From: Brevibacillus choshinensis
Lineage (GTDB): Bacteria > Bacillota > Bacilli > Brevibacillales > Brevibacillaceae
Direction of reading: 5' to 3'
Assembly: GCF_016811915.1 (NCBI RefSeq)
Contig: NZ_CP069127.1
Span: 4,707,501-4,771,500 of the forward strand
DNA length: 64,000 nucleotides
Positions 41,080-47,812 of the stretch are shown one piece after another; the first letter of the stretch is position 1, and the number at the start of each line of letters is the position of its first letter. The translations under genes were made by a program, and so were the position numbers. Below the pieces are notes generated by a model. That model did no database searches. It had not been told where the DNA came from and saw only the letters and a list, made by a program, of their open reading frames with translations.

Positions 41080-41099
41080 GGCTGTAGTTTTCTACAGCC
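41080..41099 (-). terminator. Rho-independent terminator after the giant repeat-protein gene
   Basis: GGCTGTA pairs with TACAGCC around a TGAAAACT-like loop on the minus strand, followed by TTTTTTTC. It lies about 85 bases past the stop at 41186. Confidence 0.8.
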
Positions 41100-41185: not shown

Positions 41186-44100
41186 TCAGCATGCCCTAAC
41201 ACGGATACAGCCAATTGCCAGCTGCACCCGCAAGCGGAAATCCAGTGCTGCAGCCATTCCTGCCTCCACCACCGCAACGGCGGCTTCTGCTGCATAACCG
41301 GGTGCACTGGCGACGACCAGATAGTTTCCTGGTACGAGATTGGAAACCGCATATCTCCCCAGATGATCCGTCTGCACGGTTGCCACAATCTCGACCGGAG
41401 GCTGGTTGTACTGCACCCGTACGAATGCGTTTGGTATACGCTGGCCAGTTGCCGCAGACCGAACCGTCCCTCGAATGCTCCCTGTCGAAGTCAGGCGCAC
41501 GATGATAAAGATCGTCTGATTGGCCACCACAACAGCTTGCGTGCTCCCCATCCCGATGCCTGGAATGGAGCCCTGCACCGTATAGGTTCCTGGTGACACA
41601 CCGACGAATCGGAAAGTCCCGTCTGGCTGGGCCAAAATATTTTGCAAGCGTATGCCATTCGCGTCGAACAGAGCGAGCTGAATGTTGTTACCTTGCGCCT
41701 GCGTTCCGTCTGGCAGCAGCACAATGCCGGAGATGTTTCCCGCAAGCGGCAAAAGCCCTACCGAAGCAGTTGCCGTTTGACCTCTCTGGACAGAAACCGT
41801 GCTGTAGCTGGTCCCGAAGCCTTTTGAGCTGGCAATGACGTTGTAGACGCCCTCCACAAGTCCCGTCACAAGAAATTGACCCGCATTGCCCGTGACTGTA
41901 TTTGCGATAAACACGCCATTGGAAAAGATCTGAACGGCGACCGCAGCTCCTGTGATCGGAAGGCCGGTTCCTTGATTGCGTACGACACCGGCAATATTCC
42001 CTGGTAACGCAGCCATCGTGAGGGTCAGCCCGCTTACCATCTGACCCGCAGTGACGGTAACCGTCTGCATCGCAGCAGCGTAGTTTGTTTCCATCGCACT
42101 GATTGTATACGTGCCTGGCGGGAGGCTTGCAACGGAATAGTTCCCGAAATCGTCTGTGACCGCACTTCCGAAAAGGGTCCCATGCGAGTCTTTTGCCTGT
42201 ACCGAGGCATTGGGGATCTCAGTCCCATTGGCCGTCTGCACACGTCCCGTGATCGTCGCCGAATTTGGCGGAAGGCCGATCGCGATCGGCGTTGTCGCTC
42301 CCGAAAAAATCGTTGCTCCTACCACCTGTGTCGCATAGCTTTGCATGCTGATTGACAGCGTGTACGTCAGCGGCTCCAGCCCTTCAATGACAAAATGCCC
42401 CAAGCCGTCCGTGATCGTCCGCGCCAGCAGATTGTTCGTGGACGGGAAGTAGATGAGGACGTCCGCTCCTACCAGCGGCGTTCCGTCAAAAGCATCCACG
42501 ACCGTACCTCGCAGCGTTCCCGGGTCGGGCTCAAGCTGGACATCAACCATGGCCGTCGTCCCGGACCCGACGGAGAACGATACGTTTTTGCGTTGATAGT
42601 CTTCCTTTCGCACCAGCAAGGTATAGTCACCGGACAGAAATCCACTGATCAGGTAATTGCCCTGTGCATCCGTCTGCGTGGAGAACAGGATGGCGCTATT
42701 GTTGTCGAGCAGGCGGACAAGGCTGTTTGGCAAGGGAGTGCTGACCAACACGTCCGTGACGACGCCCGTTACACCTGCCGGCAGGGAGGGTAACGAGAAA
42801 TCGAGAGTGGTGGTCTCCCCTTGGCTAACCAGCGCGGTAGATGCTTCTGCCGCATAGTCAGGCGCGTTTGCAACCAGGGTGAAGCTGCCTGCTGAAAGAC
42901 CGCTGGCGACATATCTTCCTTGATCATCTGCCACGAGGATCGTCATGATTGTCCCCGAAGGGCTTCCTTGTCTGACCGTAACCGTCGCACCTGGAATGGG
43001 CTGGCCTGTGCCTTCATCCCGCACCGATCCTGTAATCACCCCTGGCAATCCAATCAGGGCAAAGCTGAGGAAAGAAGTACCTCCTGCCATTATTTCCGCT
43101 CCAGCCACGTCACCTGCGTACCCTGTTTCGCTCGTGTTCACGGTATACAAGCCGGGAGCCAGATTTCCGACCGCATAGTTTCCATTCGTATCTGTCAGTA
43201 CCGATACGACGGGAGAGCGTGTACTGTCGTAAATGATGACCGTAGCACCTGCGATAGGCAGTCCAAAGTTCAAATCAATCACGGTTCCATTCAGGTTTCC
43301 GGGGTTCGGTGTCAACGCTTGCTGAAAGAGGGCTGTTTGCCCGCCCTGCAAAATAACGGACTGGGAGGCGAAGGAGAAATTAGAGGCAGATACGGTTACG
43401 TTCGTCACTCTGGGGGGCAGGTTTCCTGCCAGAAAGGTTCCCTGTGCGTCCGTCAAAACTTGGGCAAATAACAAGCCTTGCGCGTCTGTGATGAGTACCT
43501 TGCTCCCCGGAATTCCTAATCCTGTTGCTTGGTTCGTCACGAGTCCGGAAATGGCAGCGGGCAGATCCTGCAAAGTGACAGCAGCGGTCGAGACCGTATT
43601 TGCCAAGACGGTTACACCGATGCTCCCCGTGCCGTATCCAGGCGCATTTGCCAGAAGCGAATACACCCCAGGCGCTACACGGTCCATGGCAAACGTGCCG
43701 TCCTCACTGGCCAGCAGGCCTTGAAGCACCACATGATTGCTGTCGAGAAGCTTGACACTGAGGTTGCTGCCTGTGACCGGGATACCGAGACTGTTTACCA
43801 GCACACCCGCAATCCTTCCTGGAAGGGGGACGAGCGCTGTACTCGCATCGGTTGTACTGCCGCTCACCACATTGACTCCGACGGACTGGACGGCAAAACC
43901 CGGCGCACTTACCATTACCGTATAGGCACCCGGTGAGAGATTGTCGAGAGCGAAGTTGCCGAACGCATCGCTGCTGGCTGAAGCGACTACATTGCCGCTG
44001 CTGACGGACCGAACGAGCACAGAGGCACTTGCCAGAGAGATACCAGAATTGGTCGCATCCGTGACATGACCGCTGATACCGCCAGGATTAGGGGCCAATG

Positions 44101-47100
44101 TAAAGTAGAGCCCCGTTTCGGCTTCTCCGGGAATCAGCGTCACCCCGACTGCTCCATGAGAAAAACCCGGTGCAGTCGCCACCACCGTAAGGTTTCCCGC
44201 AGGCAGGTTGCCAATCGAATAGGTGCCCGCCTCATCAGCATATCCAAATCCTAATGTCGTTTCATTGGAATCGAGCACTCGAACGATCGCCGTGCTGATT
44301 GGCTGAAATCCCCCATCTGTAATGGTTCCCGTCACGCTTGCGGGATTGGGAGATAAGGTCAGAGACACGATTGACATCCCCGACGCTGCAACGATAGCTC
44401 CCACGGACTGTACCGAATAGCCTTCTGCCGCTGCTGTAACTACGTACGATCCAGGCGGGATGCCATTCAATAGAAAGCTCCCGTTATCAGCCGCAACCTG
44501 AGAAGCGAGGAGCACGTTGTTGATATCGAAAAACTGTACAATCGCGCCAGGAACAACAGGGGAAATCGTCCCACTGATGGCGCCGTCATCTTGAGCCAGT
44601 AAAAGCTGAACGACCGTCGCCGCATTGGCCTGAACAATCGAACCTGTCTGATTCGCCAGGTATCCGCCTGCTGAGGAGACGACGGTGTAATGCCCACCCC
44701 CCAGTCCCGAGATAAGAAAGCTCCCTTGACTGTCGGTTAGGCTGGATGCTACGAGCGACCCGGTGGAATCAAGAACATGGACCAACGCTCCCGCTATGGG
44801 AGTCATCGTCCCCTGTGCCAGTACACCGCCGTGTATCTCCCCGGGGCTAGGCGGTAGGGACATGGAAACTGTCACGCTGCCATTTGACGGCACATTTGCG
44901 CTTGCACTGTTGCTCTGATAGTTGGAAGCACTTACTGTCACTGTATACCCACCTGGCGAAAGTCCGGAGATGAGGTAATTGCCTGAAGGATCACTAAATG
45001 CCGACGCAACCACCGCTCCGGCACTGTTGCGGACACTTACCTGCACACCCGCCCCTATGATGGGAAGTCCTGTGGAAGCATCAAGGATCGTACCGAGCAA
45101 CGCTCCAGGCAAATCGGCCAGCTGAGCATTCAATGTCGTAGTTGCTCCTGAATTGATCATTACTCCTGTCACATAAGATGCTTTCCCCGCAGCAGCTATC
45201 AATGCGACATACGAGCGGGCTTGGAGACCCGGCACCACGTACTGACCATTGCCATCGGTCAATACGGCTGCCACGACAGCCCCTGCCGTCGTATTTTCCC
45301 TGACAGTCACAACCGCGCCCTGAATGGGCTGGTTCGAGCTGTCCACTACCTGCCCGGCCAAAGCCCCAGCGAAAGACACGAGGACAAAATTGAGTATCGT
45401 CATCTGCATGGGAAAAACGGTAGCTCCTAAAACAGAAGCAGAGTAGGTATCCGCGCCAACCGTCACAAAATAGGAATCCGGGGCAAGGTGAGGGAATAAG
45501 AATCCGCCCGCGCTGTCCGTCAGCGCATGGGCAATGGGGACGTTCCCTTTCCATACGGTTACCGTGGCATTTGCAATCGGACTTAATCCTGCATTCGTTA
45601 CGGTTCCGCTCAAGACTCCTGCGAGTGCTGTCAGCGACAGATCCGCTTGTGTCGTGCTTCCGGCGGATACTTGTATCCCTATCGTCTTACTTGCATAACC
45701 TTCAGCAGAGACTACCAGCACATAGCTCCCAGGAGGGATAGAAGCGAGTGTGTACTCCCCGTTGCTATCCGTCAAGGTGCTTCTGACAATGATGCCTTCA
45801 TTGGTCACCAGCTTGACGCTGCTGTTTGCAATATCTGCTGACGTCTGTGCATCTGCAATCGTCCCGCTGACCGTCCCCGGGAGTGCAGACAGGCTAAATG
45901 AAAGGTTTTTGACATCCCCAGGCGAAAGGGACACGCCTGCAAGCTGGGAAGAGAAACCGGTGGCGCTTACACGAACCTGATAGACTCCTGCCGTTACATT
46001 ATGGAGGAGATAAGCTCCTGTGCCATCGGTTACGGTTTCCGTCACAGGCAATCCCGTCTGGTTGAGCACTTCCACGAGAGCGCTTGCGATCGGTACGTTG
46101 CCTGGACCTGTCACGACACCGGAGAGCTGGGCCGGCAGTGCCTGAAGAACGACATTGTGTGTAGTCGTCTGAGCCTTGAACACATTGATCGCGGCTGAAT
46201 CCGACTGATACGAATTGGCGCTAACGGTGACCGTGTAAGTACCTGGCGTGGCGCTGGGGAACAGGTACGTCCCTCCTGCTCCTGTCGTCACTTGCGAGAT
46301 CGTGACTCCTGCTGTGTTGACGAGTTTGACCAACGCGCCCGCGATCGGAGCTGAGGCTTGATCCGTCACCGTACCCGTTACGTTTCCAGGGGTGCGAGAA
46401 AGCAAAATAGTCGCACTGGTAGTCTGTCCCGCAATCACTGTCGCGAACTGGATCTTCTGGTCGTATGTCGCAAGCGATGTAACCAGAGAATAAGTGCCCG
46501 GAGCGAGCCCTGTGAAGGAATAAGCCCCATCAGCGTTGGTCGTCGTCGACCCTATGAGCGCGGGACCGCTATCAAACAGTTCAACCGTCGCTCCTATCAA
46601 TGGGAAGTTCGTGGATTGATCGAGAACGATGCCTGCAATACTCCCTGAGGCAGTGACGTTCACGAGCAGATTATCCTGCACGGGAGTGATTTTGCCTCCA
46701 GAAAAGCTGTCCAGACCGGAGACTGTTGCGGTGTCCAAACTCCGCGTTCCACCAGCAGCGCTCGTAAACACTCCACTTACGGTAAAGGCAAGGGTGGCCG
46801 CCATGCCCGCATTCAGATTTCCAATGGTCCAGCTGAGAACTTTGGTAAGTGGATTGTAGGCGACCGCTCCCGTACTGGTACTGTTCACCGCAAAGGCCGT
46901 AACCTGATCCAGCTCGATCAGATCGGTGACCACCACATTGTTTGCTTGGCTATTCCCCGTATTGGAGACGCCGATGCTTCCCGTCCATTGGACTACCTGC
47001 CCTGTAATGACGCTCGCAGGTCCCCCTGTTAGCTGCTTGTCGATCGCGAGACTTGCTCGCACATCACTGACGGCAACCGTCGTGGTATTGCTGAAAGCAT

Positions 47101-47716
47101 TCGTAAACGTAAACCCTTCACTCGTTCGCAGCGAGTCCTTGTTGTAATTGTTATCGTCGGTTGAAGTGAACGGTATGAACCGGAGAGAGGACAGCGAGGT
47201 GACCGACAGCGTGGAAAAAAAGGCGGATGCAGGCATGACAAGGTCAATAAAATAGTCGGGATTCCCGCTGAAATTGGAGCTATCCCCGGTCGCTCTCACA
47301 CGAGCCGTATCAAAATTGATGATCGGCAATTGCCAGTTCGGCGATCCGCTTCCATCGGTCCCCTCCGCAGGGTCGTTCCAGGAATTCACCACGACGACTG
47401 TGTTTCGGATCAAGGCTATCCGGTTGCGCAATCCCTGCACGCCAAGCATCCACTGGTACGTTCCCGCCACACCGTTCGTATTGATCAGATAGCCCCAGGC
47501 GTAGTTCTGGAATCCGGTTTTTTGTGAATTCCGGGGATCTTCGTTTACACGCATGCGAAAGTACAGAGTCGTACCATCGTACGCCAGAAAGGCGGCTGGA
47601 AACGCTGCATTCCCTACTATATCGACGCCGCCTGGAGATTCGTCGTTGGGGGCGTCACCAAAGGCGACTCCGCCAATCCCAAAGGGAATGAACTGATTGT
47701 CCGCAGGGTAGGCCAT
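41186..47716 (-). CDS. Giant protein with about 21 carboxypeptidase-regulatory-like repeats
   Basis: The 2176-residue product starts with about 215 residues of beta-rich sequence that I cannot place, followed by a DUF11-like domain (about 225-360, 'GQVVQWTGSIGVSNTGNSQA'). About 21 tandem carboxypeptidase-regulatory-like (CnaB/SdrD-like) units of about 80 residues run to the end, each with 'GxVxGxVxD...PIxGAxV' and 'DxxGxYxxxxLxPGxYxVxxxAxGY'. Units diverge and are not near-identical. No signal peptide, no transmembrane anchor and no LPXTG motif is visible; the end is 'AIGCIRVRAC' with two cysteines. GAGGTGAGATG precedes ATG 47716. A surface or spore-coat filament is plausible; how it would reach the surface is unclear. 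Confidence 0.85.
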   Translation of the reverse strand: MAYPADNQFIPFGIGGVAFGDAPNDESPGGVDIVGNAAFPAAFLAYDGTTLYFRMRVNEDPRNSQKTGFQNYAWGYLINTNGVAGTYQWMLGVQGLRNRIALIRNTVVVVNSWNDPAEGTDGSGSPNWQLPIINFDTARVRATGDSSNFSGNPDYFIDLVMPASAFFSTLSVTSLSSLRFIPFTSTDDNNYNKDSLRTSEGFTFTNAFSNTTTVAVSDVRASLAIDKQLTGGPASVITGQVVQWTGSIGVSNTGNSQANNVVVTDLIELDQVTAFAVNSTSTGAVAYNPLTKVLSWTIGNLNAGMAATLAFTVSGVFTSAAGGTRSLDTATVSGLDSFSGGKITPVQDNLLVNVTASGSIAGIVLDQSTNFPLIGATVELFDSGPALIGSTTTNADGAYSFTGLAPGTYSLVTSLATYDQKIQFATVIAGQTTSATILLSRTPGNVTGTVTDQASAPIAGALVKLVNTAGVTISQVTTGAGGTYLFPSATPGTYTVTVSANSYQSDSAAINVFKAQTTTHNVVLQALPAQLSGVVTGPGNVPIASALVEVLNQTGLPVTETVTDGTGAYLLHNVTAGVYQVRVSATGFSSQLAGVSLSPGDVKNLSFSLSALPGTVSGTIADAQTSADIANSSVKLVTNEGIIVRSTLTDSNGEYTLASIPPGSYVLVVSAEGYASKTIGIQVSAGSTTQADLSLTALAGVLSGTVTNAGLSPIANATVTVWKGNVPIAHALTDSAGGFLFPHLAPDSYFVTVGADTYSASVLGATVFPMQMTILNFVLVSFAGALAGQVVDSSNQPIQGAVVTVRENTTAGAVVAAVLTDGNGQYVVPGLQARSYVALIAAAGKASYVTGVMINSGATTTLNAQLADLPGALLGTILDASTGLPIIGAGVQVSVRNSAGAVVASAFSDPSGNYLISGLSPGGYTVTVSASNYQSNSASANVPSNGSVTVSMSLPPSPGEIHGGVLAQGTMTPIAGALVHVLDSTGSLVASSLTDSQGSFLISGLGGGHYTVVSSAGGYLANQTGSIVQANAATVVQLLLAQDDGAISGTISPVVPGAIVQFFDINNVLLASQVAADNGSFLLNGIPPGSYVVTAAAEGYSVQSVGAIVAASGMSIVSLTLSPNPASVTGTITDGGFQPISTAIVRVLDSNETTLGFGYADEAGTYSIGNLPAGNLTVVATAPGFSHGAVGVTLIPGEAETGLYFTLAPNPGGISGHVTDATNSGISLASASVLVRSVSSGNVVASASSDAFGNFALDNLSPGAYTVMVSAPGFAVQSVGVNVVSGSTTDASTALVPLPGRIAGVLVNSLGIPVTGSNLSVKLLDSNHVVLQGLLASEDGTFAMDRVAPGVYSLLANAPGYGTGSIGVTVLANTVSTAAVTLQDLPAAISGLVTNQATGLGIPGSKVLITDAQGLLFAQVLTDAQGTFLAGNLPPRVTNVTVSASNFSFASQSVILQGGQTALFQQALTPNPGNLNGTVIDLNFGLPIAGATVIIYDSTRSPVVSVLTDTNGNYAVGNLAPGLYTVNTSETGYAGDVAGAEIMAGGTSFLSFALIGLPGVITGSVRDEGTGQPIPGATVTVRQGSPSGTIMTILVADDQGRYVASGLSAGSFTLVANAPDYAAEASTALVSQGETTTLDFSLPSLPAGVTGVVTDVLVSTPLPNSLVRLLDNNSAILFSTQTDAQGNYLISGFLSGDYTLLVRKEDYQRKNVSFSVGSGTTAMVDVQLEPDPGTLRGTVVDAFDGTPLVGADVLIYFPSTNNLLARTITDGLGHFVIEGLEPLTYTLSISMQSYATQVVGATIFSGATTPIAIGLPPNSATITGRVQTANGTEIPNASVQAKDSHGTLFGSAVTDDFGNYSVASLPPGTYTISAMETNYAAAMQTVTVTAGQMVSGLTLTMAALPGNIAGVVRNQGTGLPITGAAVAVQIFSNGVFIANTVTGNAGQFLVTGLVEGVYNVIASSKGFGTSYSTVSVQRGQTATASVGLLPLAGNISGIVLLPDGTQAQGNNIQLALFDANGIRLQNILAQPDGTFRFVGVSPGTYTVQGSIPGIGMGSTQAVVVANQTIFIIVRLTSTGSIRGTVRSAATGQRIPNAFVRVQYNQPPVEIVATVQTDHLGRYAVSNLVPGNYLVVASAPGYAAEAAVAVVEAGMAAALDFRLRVQLAIGCIRVRAC

Positions 47717-47812
47717 TTCATCTCACCTCTGCCATTACGGTATGTACGAACGGACGTCAAGCACTGTGCTCATTCCCATTTCGGGCTTATCAGCTTCTGT
47801 CCCACACAAAAA

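Follow-up and report, generated by a model that had tools for sequence, protein, structure and literature searches.

A leaderless giant repeat protein of Brevibacillus choshinensis as a candidate stalk of the spore surface

In a stretch of 64,000 nucleotides of the Brevibacillus choshinensis genome (hereafter the window) we analysed a gene on the reverse strand that codes for a repeat protein of 2176 residues. Its product is probably made in the mother cell, docked on the spore by its N-terminal domain and projecting from there as a stalk; we put the probability of this reading at roughly three in four. An earlier note, made from the letters of the window alone, had proposed a mother-cell protein assembled on the spore surface. 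This proposal is supported by the absence of a leader, by a sigma-K-type promoter conserved in all 13 Brevibacillus copies and by the presence of SpoIVA (PF09547) in each of the 39 tested genomes with a leaderless form; taken together, these findings are best explained if the mother cell produces the protein and it is assembled on the spore.

According to this reading, sigma-K RNA polymerase would switch the gene on in the mother cell late in sporulation. As the forespore lies within the cytoplasm of the mother cell, the protein could do without a signal peptide. The N-terminal domain would dock on the outer layer of the spore or on a spore glycan, presumably in this direction, and the DUF11 region and the 21 transthyretin-like units would form a long stalk that projects from the spore once the mother cell lyses. 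With 3–4 nm per bead, such a stalk may reach roughly 70–80 nm.

Frame, domains and start of the protein

The gene is one frame, open over 2176 codons, in a single-contig genome of 6.17 Mb whose nearest named relatives are Brevibacillus porteri, B. reuszeri, B. fortis and an uncultured Brevibacillus sp. Pfam recognised 21 stretches of CarboxypepD_reg (PF13620; E 8.7e-263, 850 bits against a curated score of 32.3), and a unit model built here also gave 21 units, with a period of 80–88 and a median of 86.5. Together with the single open frame this shows that the repeat protein described earlier is real. Aligned with the proteins of the four named relatives, the window protein is 62.9–64.2% identical over 2176 residues with 8 gap columns each, which correspond to its length difference from each of the four. 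As this full-length identity comes with so few gaps, and as the neighbouring genes are shared in the four relatives, the frame is not a product of chance.

For residues 1–233 Pfam gave no match up to E 10, and the best PDB sequence match of the N-terminal domain is not significant (E 0.43). The domain thus stays unplaced, as first described, and is followed by the DUF11 region (E 2.5e-8). A cell-wall anchor is found neither among the best 25 of 27 Pfam matches nor among the 11 NCBIfam matches, in line with the unanchored end noted before. The short C-terminal tail of 14 residues holds both cysteines of the protein, its only ones. The two-cysteine tail that had been pointed out is therefore present in the window protein, but the pair occurs in only 3 of the 13 Brevibacillus copies, whereas C2176 alone is kept in all of them.

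The start codon is well defined. A 7-base Shine-Dalgarno match lies ahead of the ATG, and an in-frame TGA precedes it by 9 nucleotides (nt). Since in-frame stops are situated 9–27 nt before the start in 13/13 Brevibacillus copies, a signal peptide hidden upstream can be ruled out; this was the finding that the earlier note had named as speaking against its proposal, and its statement that no export signal is visible holds. The most hydrophobic 12-residue stretch within the first 50 residues averages 1.68 on the Kyte-Doolittle scale in the window protein, which is also the upper limit among the leaderless rows scored. The corresponding values of relatives with a signal peptide are 2.48–3.07 in eight of the nine scored; the ninth (G365) gave 0.13, where the script had picked the wrong start.

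The C-terminal cysteine bears on the possibility that the protein is a filler or scaffold of the internal spore coat or the interspace, made in the mother cell and not exposed at the surface. The invariant Brevibacillus cysteine could be cross-linked there, and the expression evidence given below would fit just the same. However, no cysteine is present in the last 100 residues of the 11/11 Paenibacillaceae proteins read, the long bead string is rich in serine and threonine (20.3% taken together) and in this resembles surface stalks, and polysaccharide and glycosyltransferase genes downstream of a Priestia relative (see below) suggest a glycosylated surface part. We therefore regard an internal location as the least probable of the explanations considered.

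The promoter in Brevibacillus

The earlier note had advised looking for a mother-cell promoter upstream of position 47716, and a sigma-K-type site was indeed found, TGC-N16-CATACCGTA, 28 nt ahead of the ATG. The form RC-N16-CATAnnnTA recurs in 13/13 Brevibacillus leaders, always with a spacing of 16 nt, with variable nnn and with the -10 element 28–34 nt from the start. The -35 element reads GGC in eight leaders, TGC in three and CGC and GAC in one each, so that 12/13 have GC instead of AC, like bclB; the -10 element is CATATGTTA in ten leaders and CATACCGTA, CATAACGTA and CATAAGTTA in one each. All 13 leaders hence show the arrangement of the sigma-K regulon, a KCACM-type -35 element, 16 nt and CATAnnnTA. 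The consensus is printed as KCACM / GCATANNNTA in the excerpt of PMC3416734, and the sigK-dependent exosporium promoters of Bacillus thuringiensis are given as CAC-N16-CATATGTTA for bclA and AGC-N16-CATATAATT for bclB (PMC4750369, in part).

Leader similarity between the clades is 0.40–0.75; yet the A-CATA-nnn-TA columns and the ribosome-binding site AGAGGTGAG are invariant in 13/13. When the leaders of four Brevibacillus copies were shuffled, RC-N16-CATAnnnTA arose in 4, 7, 16 and 7 of 5000 sequences. Sites for sigma-E and sigma-A gave no consistent match in the leaders scored, and no sigma-A-type promoter stands out within 120 nt upstream of the gene in four Brevibacillus (p 0.44–1.0). A further conserved box, which might be the site of a regulator, lies upstream of the -35 element (Table 1); we take it to be only partly like a SpoIIID-type site.

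How specific the motif is was surveyed in 1.264 Mb of the own genome (60 stretches and the window) with 1286 called frames. CATAnnnTA lies 20–75 nt upstream of 27 of them, and 13, the window gene included, also have RC at a distance of 15–17 nt. Four of the 12 others belong to sporulation-type Pfam families (two YheCD, SpoVIF and gerPA/gerPF), whose assignment to a mother-cell or coat-type class is our own sorting; the comparison with 20 random genes (same gene caller, Shine-Dalgarno score at least 4, at most 650 residues) is 4/12 against 0/20 for mother-cell families (p 0.014). Among the 14 genes with CATAnnnTA and no RC at 15–17 nt, one is SpoIVA by its position, and the eight that were scanned in Pfam gave no sporulation-specific family. 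In the window itself CATAnnnTA occurs 14 times (11.4 expected) and RC-N16-CATAnnnTA twice (1.43 expected). As these counts are near expectation, the case for the promoter rests on conservation and position and not on counts.

Relatives and the link to sporulation

Relatives were searched with profiles of the N-terminal domain in genome samples that overlap one another. Matches were obtained in 17/398 genomes of the class sample, 13 of them Brevibacillus, in 5/398 of the phylum sample, one being the own genome, and in 27/344 genomes of a family taken to be Paenibacillaceae (that of G365). Further samples gave 4/80 in the family of G209, 1/46 in the class of G552 and 1/42 in the order of G191. 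Within Brevibacillus the domain is present in 13/26 genomes, the own included, and it was met in 0/13 other genomes of the family. It also occurs on Priestia megaterium plasmids (6 records) and on one replicon of Paenibacillus cellulosilyticus. A phage or viral origin was rejected, as there was no match in phages and no relative in viral contigs.

The relatives are of two sorts, leaderless forms and secreted forms with a signal peptide before the domain. In the leaderless rows the start lies 0–3 codons from the domain in 41 of the 42 scored and 6 codons away in a single G939 copy; for the second copy in G908 the start was poorly read. Genome G939, one of the Paenibacillaceae, has four leaderless-domain matches (L045, L071 and two more places) in frames of 1919–1954 codons. 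A signal peptide is visible before the domain in G365, G950, G958, G971, G1092, G1122, G096, G687 and G728, and G1192, whose frame is broken, was placed with these by its likeness to G096. In the domain tree the leaderless rows stand on one side of a branch, with weak support (39/75) and very long branches leading to the secreted rows; a single origin of the leaderless forms would be compatible with this. In the secreted proteins (G365, G096, G687, G728 and others) a distantly related N-terminal domain likewise precedes surface repeats, of the beta-sandwich or of other kinds, and in G687 and G728 it precedes a DUF11. They differ by their signal peptides, by lying on branches of at least 2.4 changes per site and by the lack of SpoIVA in 6/10 genomes.

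SpoIVA was found in 39/39 tested genomes with leaderless forms, representing 10 genera: 13 Brevibacillus, 20 Paenibacillaceae, G191, G209, G226, G830, G836 and G552. The start was scored in 36 of them; G925, G932 and G1000 have broken copies, the last two with unreadable starts. Among the ten genomes with secreted forms, SpoIVA is present in G096, G1092, G1122 and G1192 (four genera) and missing from G365, G950, G958, G971, G687 (77% complete) and G728 (89% complete). Counted by genome, the contrast between leaderless and secreted forms has a p of 1.5e-5.

These results are relevant to a second explanation, namely that the protein belongs to the surface or the secretions of vegetative cells and is exported without a classical signal peptide. 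Exported proteins are where the fold of the units is typically met, classical signal peptides do occur in distant relatives of the N-terminal domain, and a sigma-A-like site precedes the P. cellulosilyticus copy. Yet among the 39 genomes tested no leaderless form was found in one free of SpoIVA, and both the missing cell-wall anchor and the missing sigma-A promoter reported above argue in the other direction. Vegetative export thus seems very unlikely, though slightly less so than the internal location.

Sporulation genes directly adjoin a leaderless gene in G552, which belongs to another class and has a short form of 372 residues consisting of the domain and one unit. Two SPOCS/SipL-domain genes (33.1 and 18.1 against a Pfam cut-off of 23.6) point away from this gene, and behind them ymxH (TIGR02888) and sigG (TIGR02850, 502.9 against 457 bits) are situated. 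TCAC-N16-CATAATATA, a sigma-K site of full consensus, lies 67 nt before the start. A gene for a Cys-rich protein overlaps the end of the short gene by 8 nt, and behind this partner three near-identical cysteine-containing proteins of 94–96 residues are encoded in tandem (L176:8393-9591, plus strand); two of these were scanned and showed no Pfam family. The G1007 protein, 227 residues long, consists of the domain only; its gene has a sigma-K-type site, TTACA and then GCATAGTTTA, upstream and a LysM-GH18 gene of the same orientation directly downstream. Other surroundings are found elsewhere. The gene of 7366 residues on the Priestia plasmid pBMG2 is followed by wecB and by polysaccharide and glycosyltransferase genes, and in 5/7 Paenibacillaceae inspected by eye a purE-purK-like operon adjoins the gene.

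Several results weigh against a spore-surface stalk made under sigma-K. The promoter form is not diagnostic alone, as it precedes 12 other genes in the 1.264 Mb surveyed. If any spore family is counted, the motif genes do not differ significantly from the random ones (4/12 against 3/20, the latter germinant-receptor genes; p 0.38), and three of the four family members, when rescanned in NCBIfam, remained below every sporulation cut-off (SpoVIF with 40.9 against 130 bits). Genome-wide, CATAnnnTA before an AGGTGA site is not enriched, with 5 matches against 13 in the reversed control. A loose sigma-K score was unremarkable in four single Brevibacillus leaders (p 0.045–0.38) and reached p < 0.05 in just 2/25 leaders of other lineages, G552 and G1007, in each of which 0/200 shuffles scored as well; the P. 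cellulosilyticus leader scores for sigma-A instead (p 0.005). Lone good sigma-E scores were seen in the G1089 and G952b leaders. The Brevibacillus neighbours of the gene are not recognisable as sporulation genes, and a sigma-A-like site at 48299-48270 before the YisL-like gene might permit read-through into the stalk gene. SpoIVA is present in 26/26 Brevibacillus, yet half of these are without the stalk gene, and carriage is therefore not simply a matter of sporulation. Finally, counted by genus the SpoIVA contrast shrinks to 10/10 against 2/4 (p 0.066), and the secreted rows used for it are very distant.

Unit number, known spore structures and neighbouring genes

The number of units is fixed by lineage. 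Brevibacillus has 21 units in 12/13 copies; the script counted 22 in G008, where the extra unit (residues 216-261, before DUF11) is taken as spurious. Eighteen units were counted in all 13 proteins read from 11 of the 20 Paenibacillaceae carriers, P. cellulosilyticus and G191. Other counts are 23 in G836, 74 in G209, 80 in Priestia Mes11 and 1 in G552. On the Priestia megaterium plasmids L073 and L074 the gene has 7366 residues and 7159 codons (the latter from the annotation), and thus its length varies between strains, unlike in Brevibacillus, where 11/13 proteins have 2184 residues, the window protein 2176, and the G008 protein 2178 as read, from a start set two codons too far upstream.

The units also keep their order. 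Each of the 21 window units has its best match at the same position in B. reuszeri and likewise in B. porteri, with 62.8% and 61.4% identity, respectively, compared to 30.6% at other positions. Between genera the difference is smaller (33–39% against 29–31%), and window units 5 to 14 have their best G191 match at the same positions. This likeness across genera argues for an old array. Conservation is highest in the N-terminal domain: it is 79–81% identical to that of B. reuszeri and B. porteri and 47–57% to that of five other lineages, which compares with 63% for the units in B. reuszeri (79% for the domain) and 33–39% in the five other lineages. This conservation suggests that the domain makes a specific contact.

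The same observations bear on a third explanation, a protein of the extrasporal matrix that would be a sigma-K product of the mother cell, released at lysis and deposited between the spores. Everything that speaks for mother-cell production fits it equally well, no spore-targeting motif is known for the stalk protein, and a fibrous matrix of this kind is described for B. thuringiensis in the excerpt of PMC11952670. On the other hand, the conserved N-terminal domain and the lineage-fixed unit numbers suggest a part that is placed and measured, and G1007 has the domain free of any repeats. We consider a matrix protein unlikely, if less so than the two explanations above, and prefer the docked stalk. 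Whether the leaderless forms constitute a widespread family of single-chain spore stalks, whose 18, 21, 23, 74 or 80 beads in up to 7366 residues serve as a molecular ruler of the outer halo of the spore, is in our view evenly balanced.

For the fold of the N-terminal domain two AlphaFold2 models were made from five close sequences. Their mean predicted local distance difference test (pLDDT) values of 46.8 and 51.6 are too low to assign a fold with confidence. In structural comparisons with these low-confidence models the ten best matches had Z scores of 3.2–4.8 and 3.3–4.4, with an unrelated structure at rank 11 (3.2 and 2.9). We take all ten to be CBM9/DOMON-like, comprising the Sas6/CBM74 region, ethylbenzene dehydrogenase, BACUNI_03838, CBM9, NxrC and cellobiose dehydrogenase. 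The domain is possibly a beta-sandwich of this type, which is a lead and not a result: such domains head the list of matches, but at Z scores near those of unrelated rows and with no significant Pfam or PDB sequence match.

BclA, which forms the naps of the Bacillus cereus group, is produced by the mother cell and lacks a signal peptide. The BclA naps and the DUF11-bearing F-Anchor-3 would be the closest analogues of the stalk, although the searches turned up the defining domains of neither. With the naps it shares a sigma-K promoter of the same form (PMC4750369, in part) and a docking N-terminal part followed by a long repetitive stalk (PMC11952670, in part). It differs in having transthyretin-like units in place of collagen triplets and, presumably, in being one chain where BclA is a trimer. 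The 11 NCBIfam matches up to E 1 do not include the exosporium leader TIGR03720, and neither the collagen family nor the BclA C-terminal domain is among the best 25 of 27 Pfam matches. F-Anchor-3 of Clostridium aceticum has DUF11 domains and is proposed to tie the F-ENA fibre to the spore surface, and the number of DUF11 domains varies by lineage (PMC11952670, in part). The F-ENA fibre, however, is assembled from many subunits, whereas a single gene encodes the entire stalk. DUF4183, a CsxA-like domain and DUF3992, presumably the subunit domain of endospore appendages (ENA), are not among the best 25 of 27 Pfam matches up to E 1.

We found no description of the stalk family in the open PMC papers searched, subscription papers and supplements being outside the scope, and no spore proteome in that open literature that names the protein. 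The two main bands of B. laterosporus, 28 and 16 kDa, were assigned to ExsC, CHRD, CpbA and CpbB (PMC5335551, in part); they neither test nor exclude a giant protein. Carboxypeptidases in a Moorella spore proteome were rejected as relatives, as they are D-Ala-D-Ala enzymes (PMC8745062, in part).

Spore surface structures decide on the sticking, clumping and recognition of spores, and few of their parts are known in Brevibacillus, Paenibacillus and Priestia. If our reading is true, the stalk would add another type of spore hair to the collagen naps and ENA fibres. It would explain genes annotated merely as 'carboxypeptidase regulatory-like domain-containing protein', and the family could be found by a simple rule, a leaderless N-terminal domain and then DUF11 and CarboxypepD_reg units. 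With unit numbers that are constant over large divergence it would be a natural ruler, and it might serve as an anchor for spore display in harmless species.

The features of the gene are collected in Table 1.

Table 1. Features of the stalk gene and its surroundings (window positions)
Feature	Position	Strand	Basis
Leaderless repeat-protein gene, 2176 residues	41186..47716	-	frame, relatives
N-terminal domain, residues 1-232	47021..47716	-	no Pfam match; most conserved part; weak CBM9/DOMON-like fold match
DUF11 region, residues 233-356	46649..47020	-	PF01345, E 2.5e-8
21 CarboxypepD_reg (transthyretin-like) units, residues 358-2162	41231..46645	-	Pfam and own unit model
C-terminal tail with C2170 and C2176	41189..41230	-	C2176 kept in 13/13 Brevibacillus copies
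Ribosome-binding site AGAGGTGAG	47722..47730	-	invariant in 13/13 Brevibacillus
Sigma-K-type -10 element CATACCGTA	47736..47744	-	CATAnnnTA in 13/13 Brevibacillus
-35 element TGC	47761..47763	-	exactly 16 nt before -10; RC in 13/13
Conserved upstream box GGAC-N7-GAYRAGSC, possible regulator site	47784..47802	-	13/13, 86-92 nt before start
Terminator-like hairpin with T-run, 3' of the stalk gene	41080..41099	-	

In the four named relatives a YisL-like gene lies upstream of the stalk gene, and MurR/RpiR, nagB and a gene for a 250-residue protein lie downstream, the names being our assumption from sequence. An apparent overlap with the MurR/RpiR gene is an artefact of taking the first start codon; the true start of this gene is most likely 41018, behind the hairpin at 41099-41080. 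Between 48715 and 53142, on the reverse strand, two genes resembling proline racemases surround an aldehyde dehydrogenase and a DapA-like gene (names from sequence). The cluster probably serves the use of hydroxyproline, and its relatives adjoin the stalk gene in four genomes. Elsewhere in the own genome, near 0.87 Mb, a Cu/Zn superoxide dismutase (L084:5925-6446, reverse strand) has no signal peptide evident by eye; AAC-N17-CATATGCTA lies upstream of it, and it is possibly an enzyme of the spore surface.

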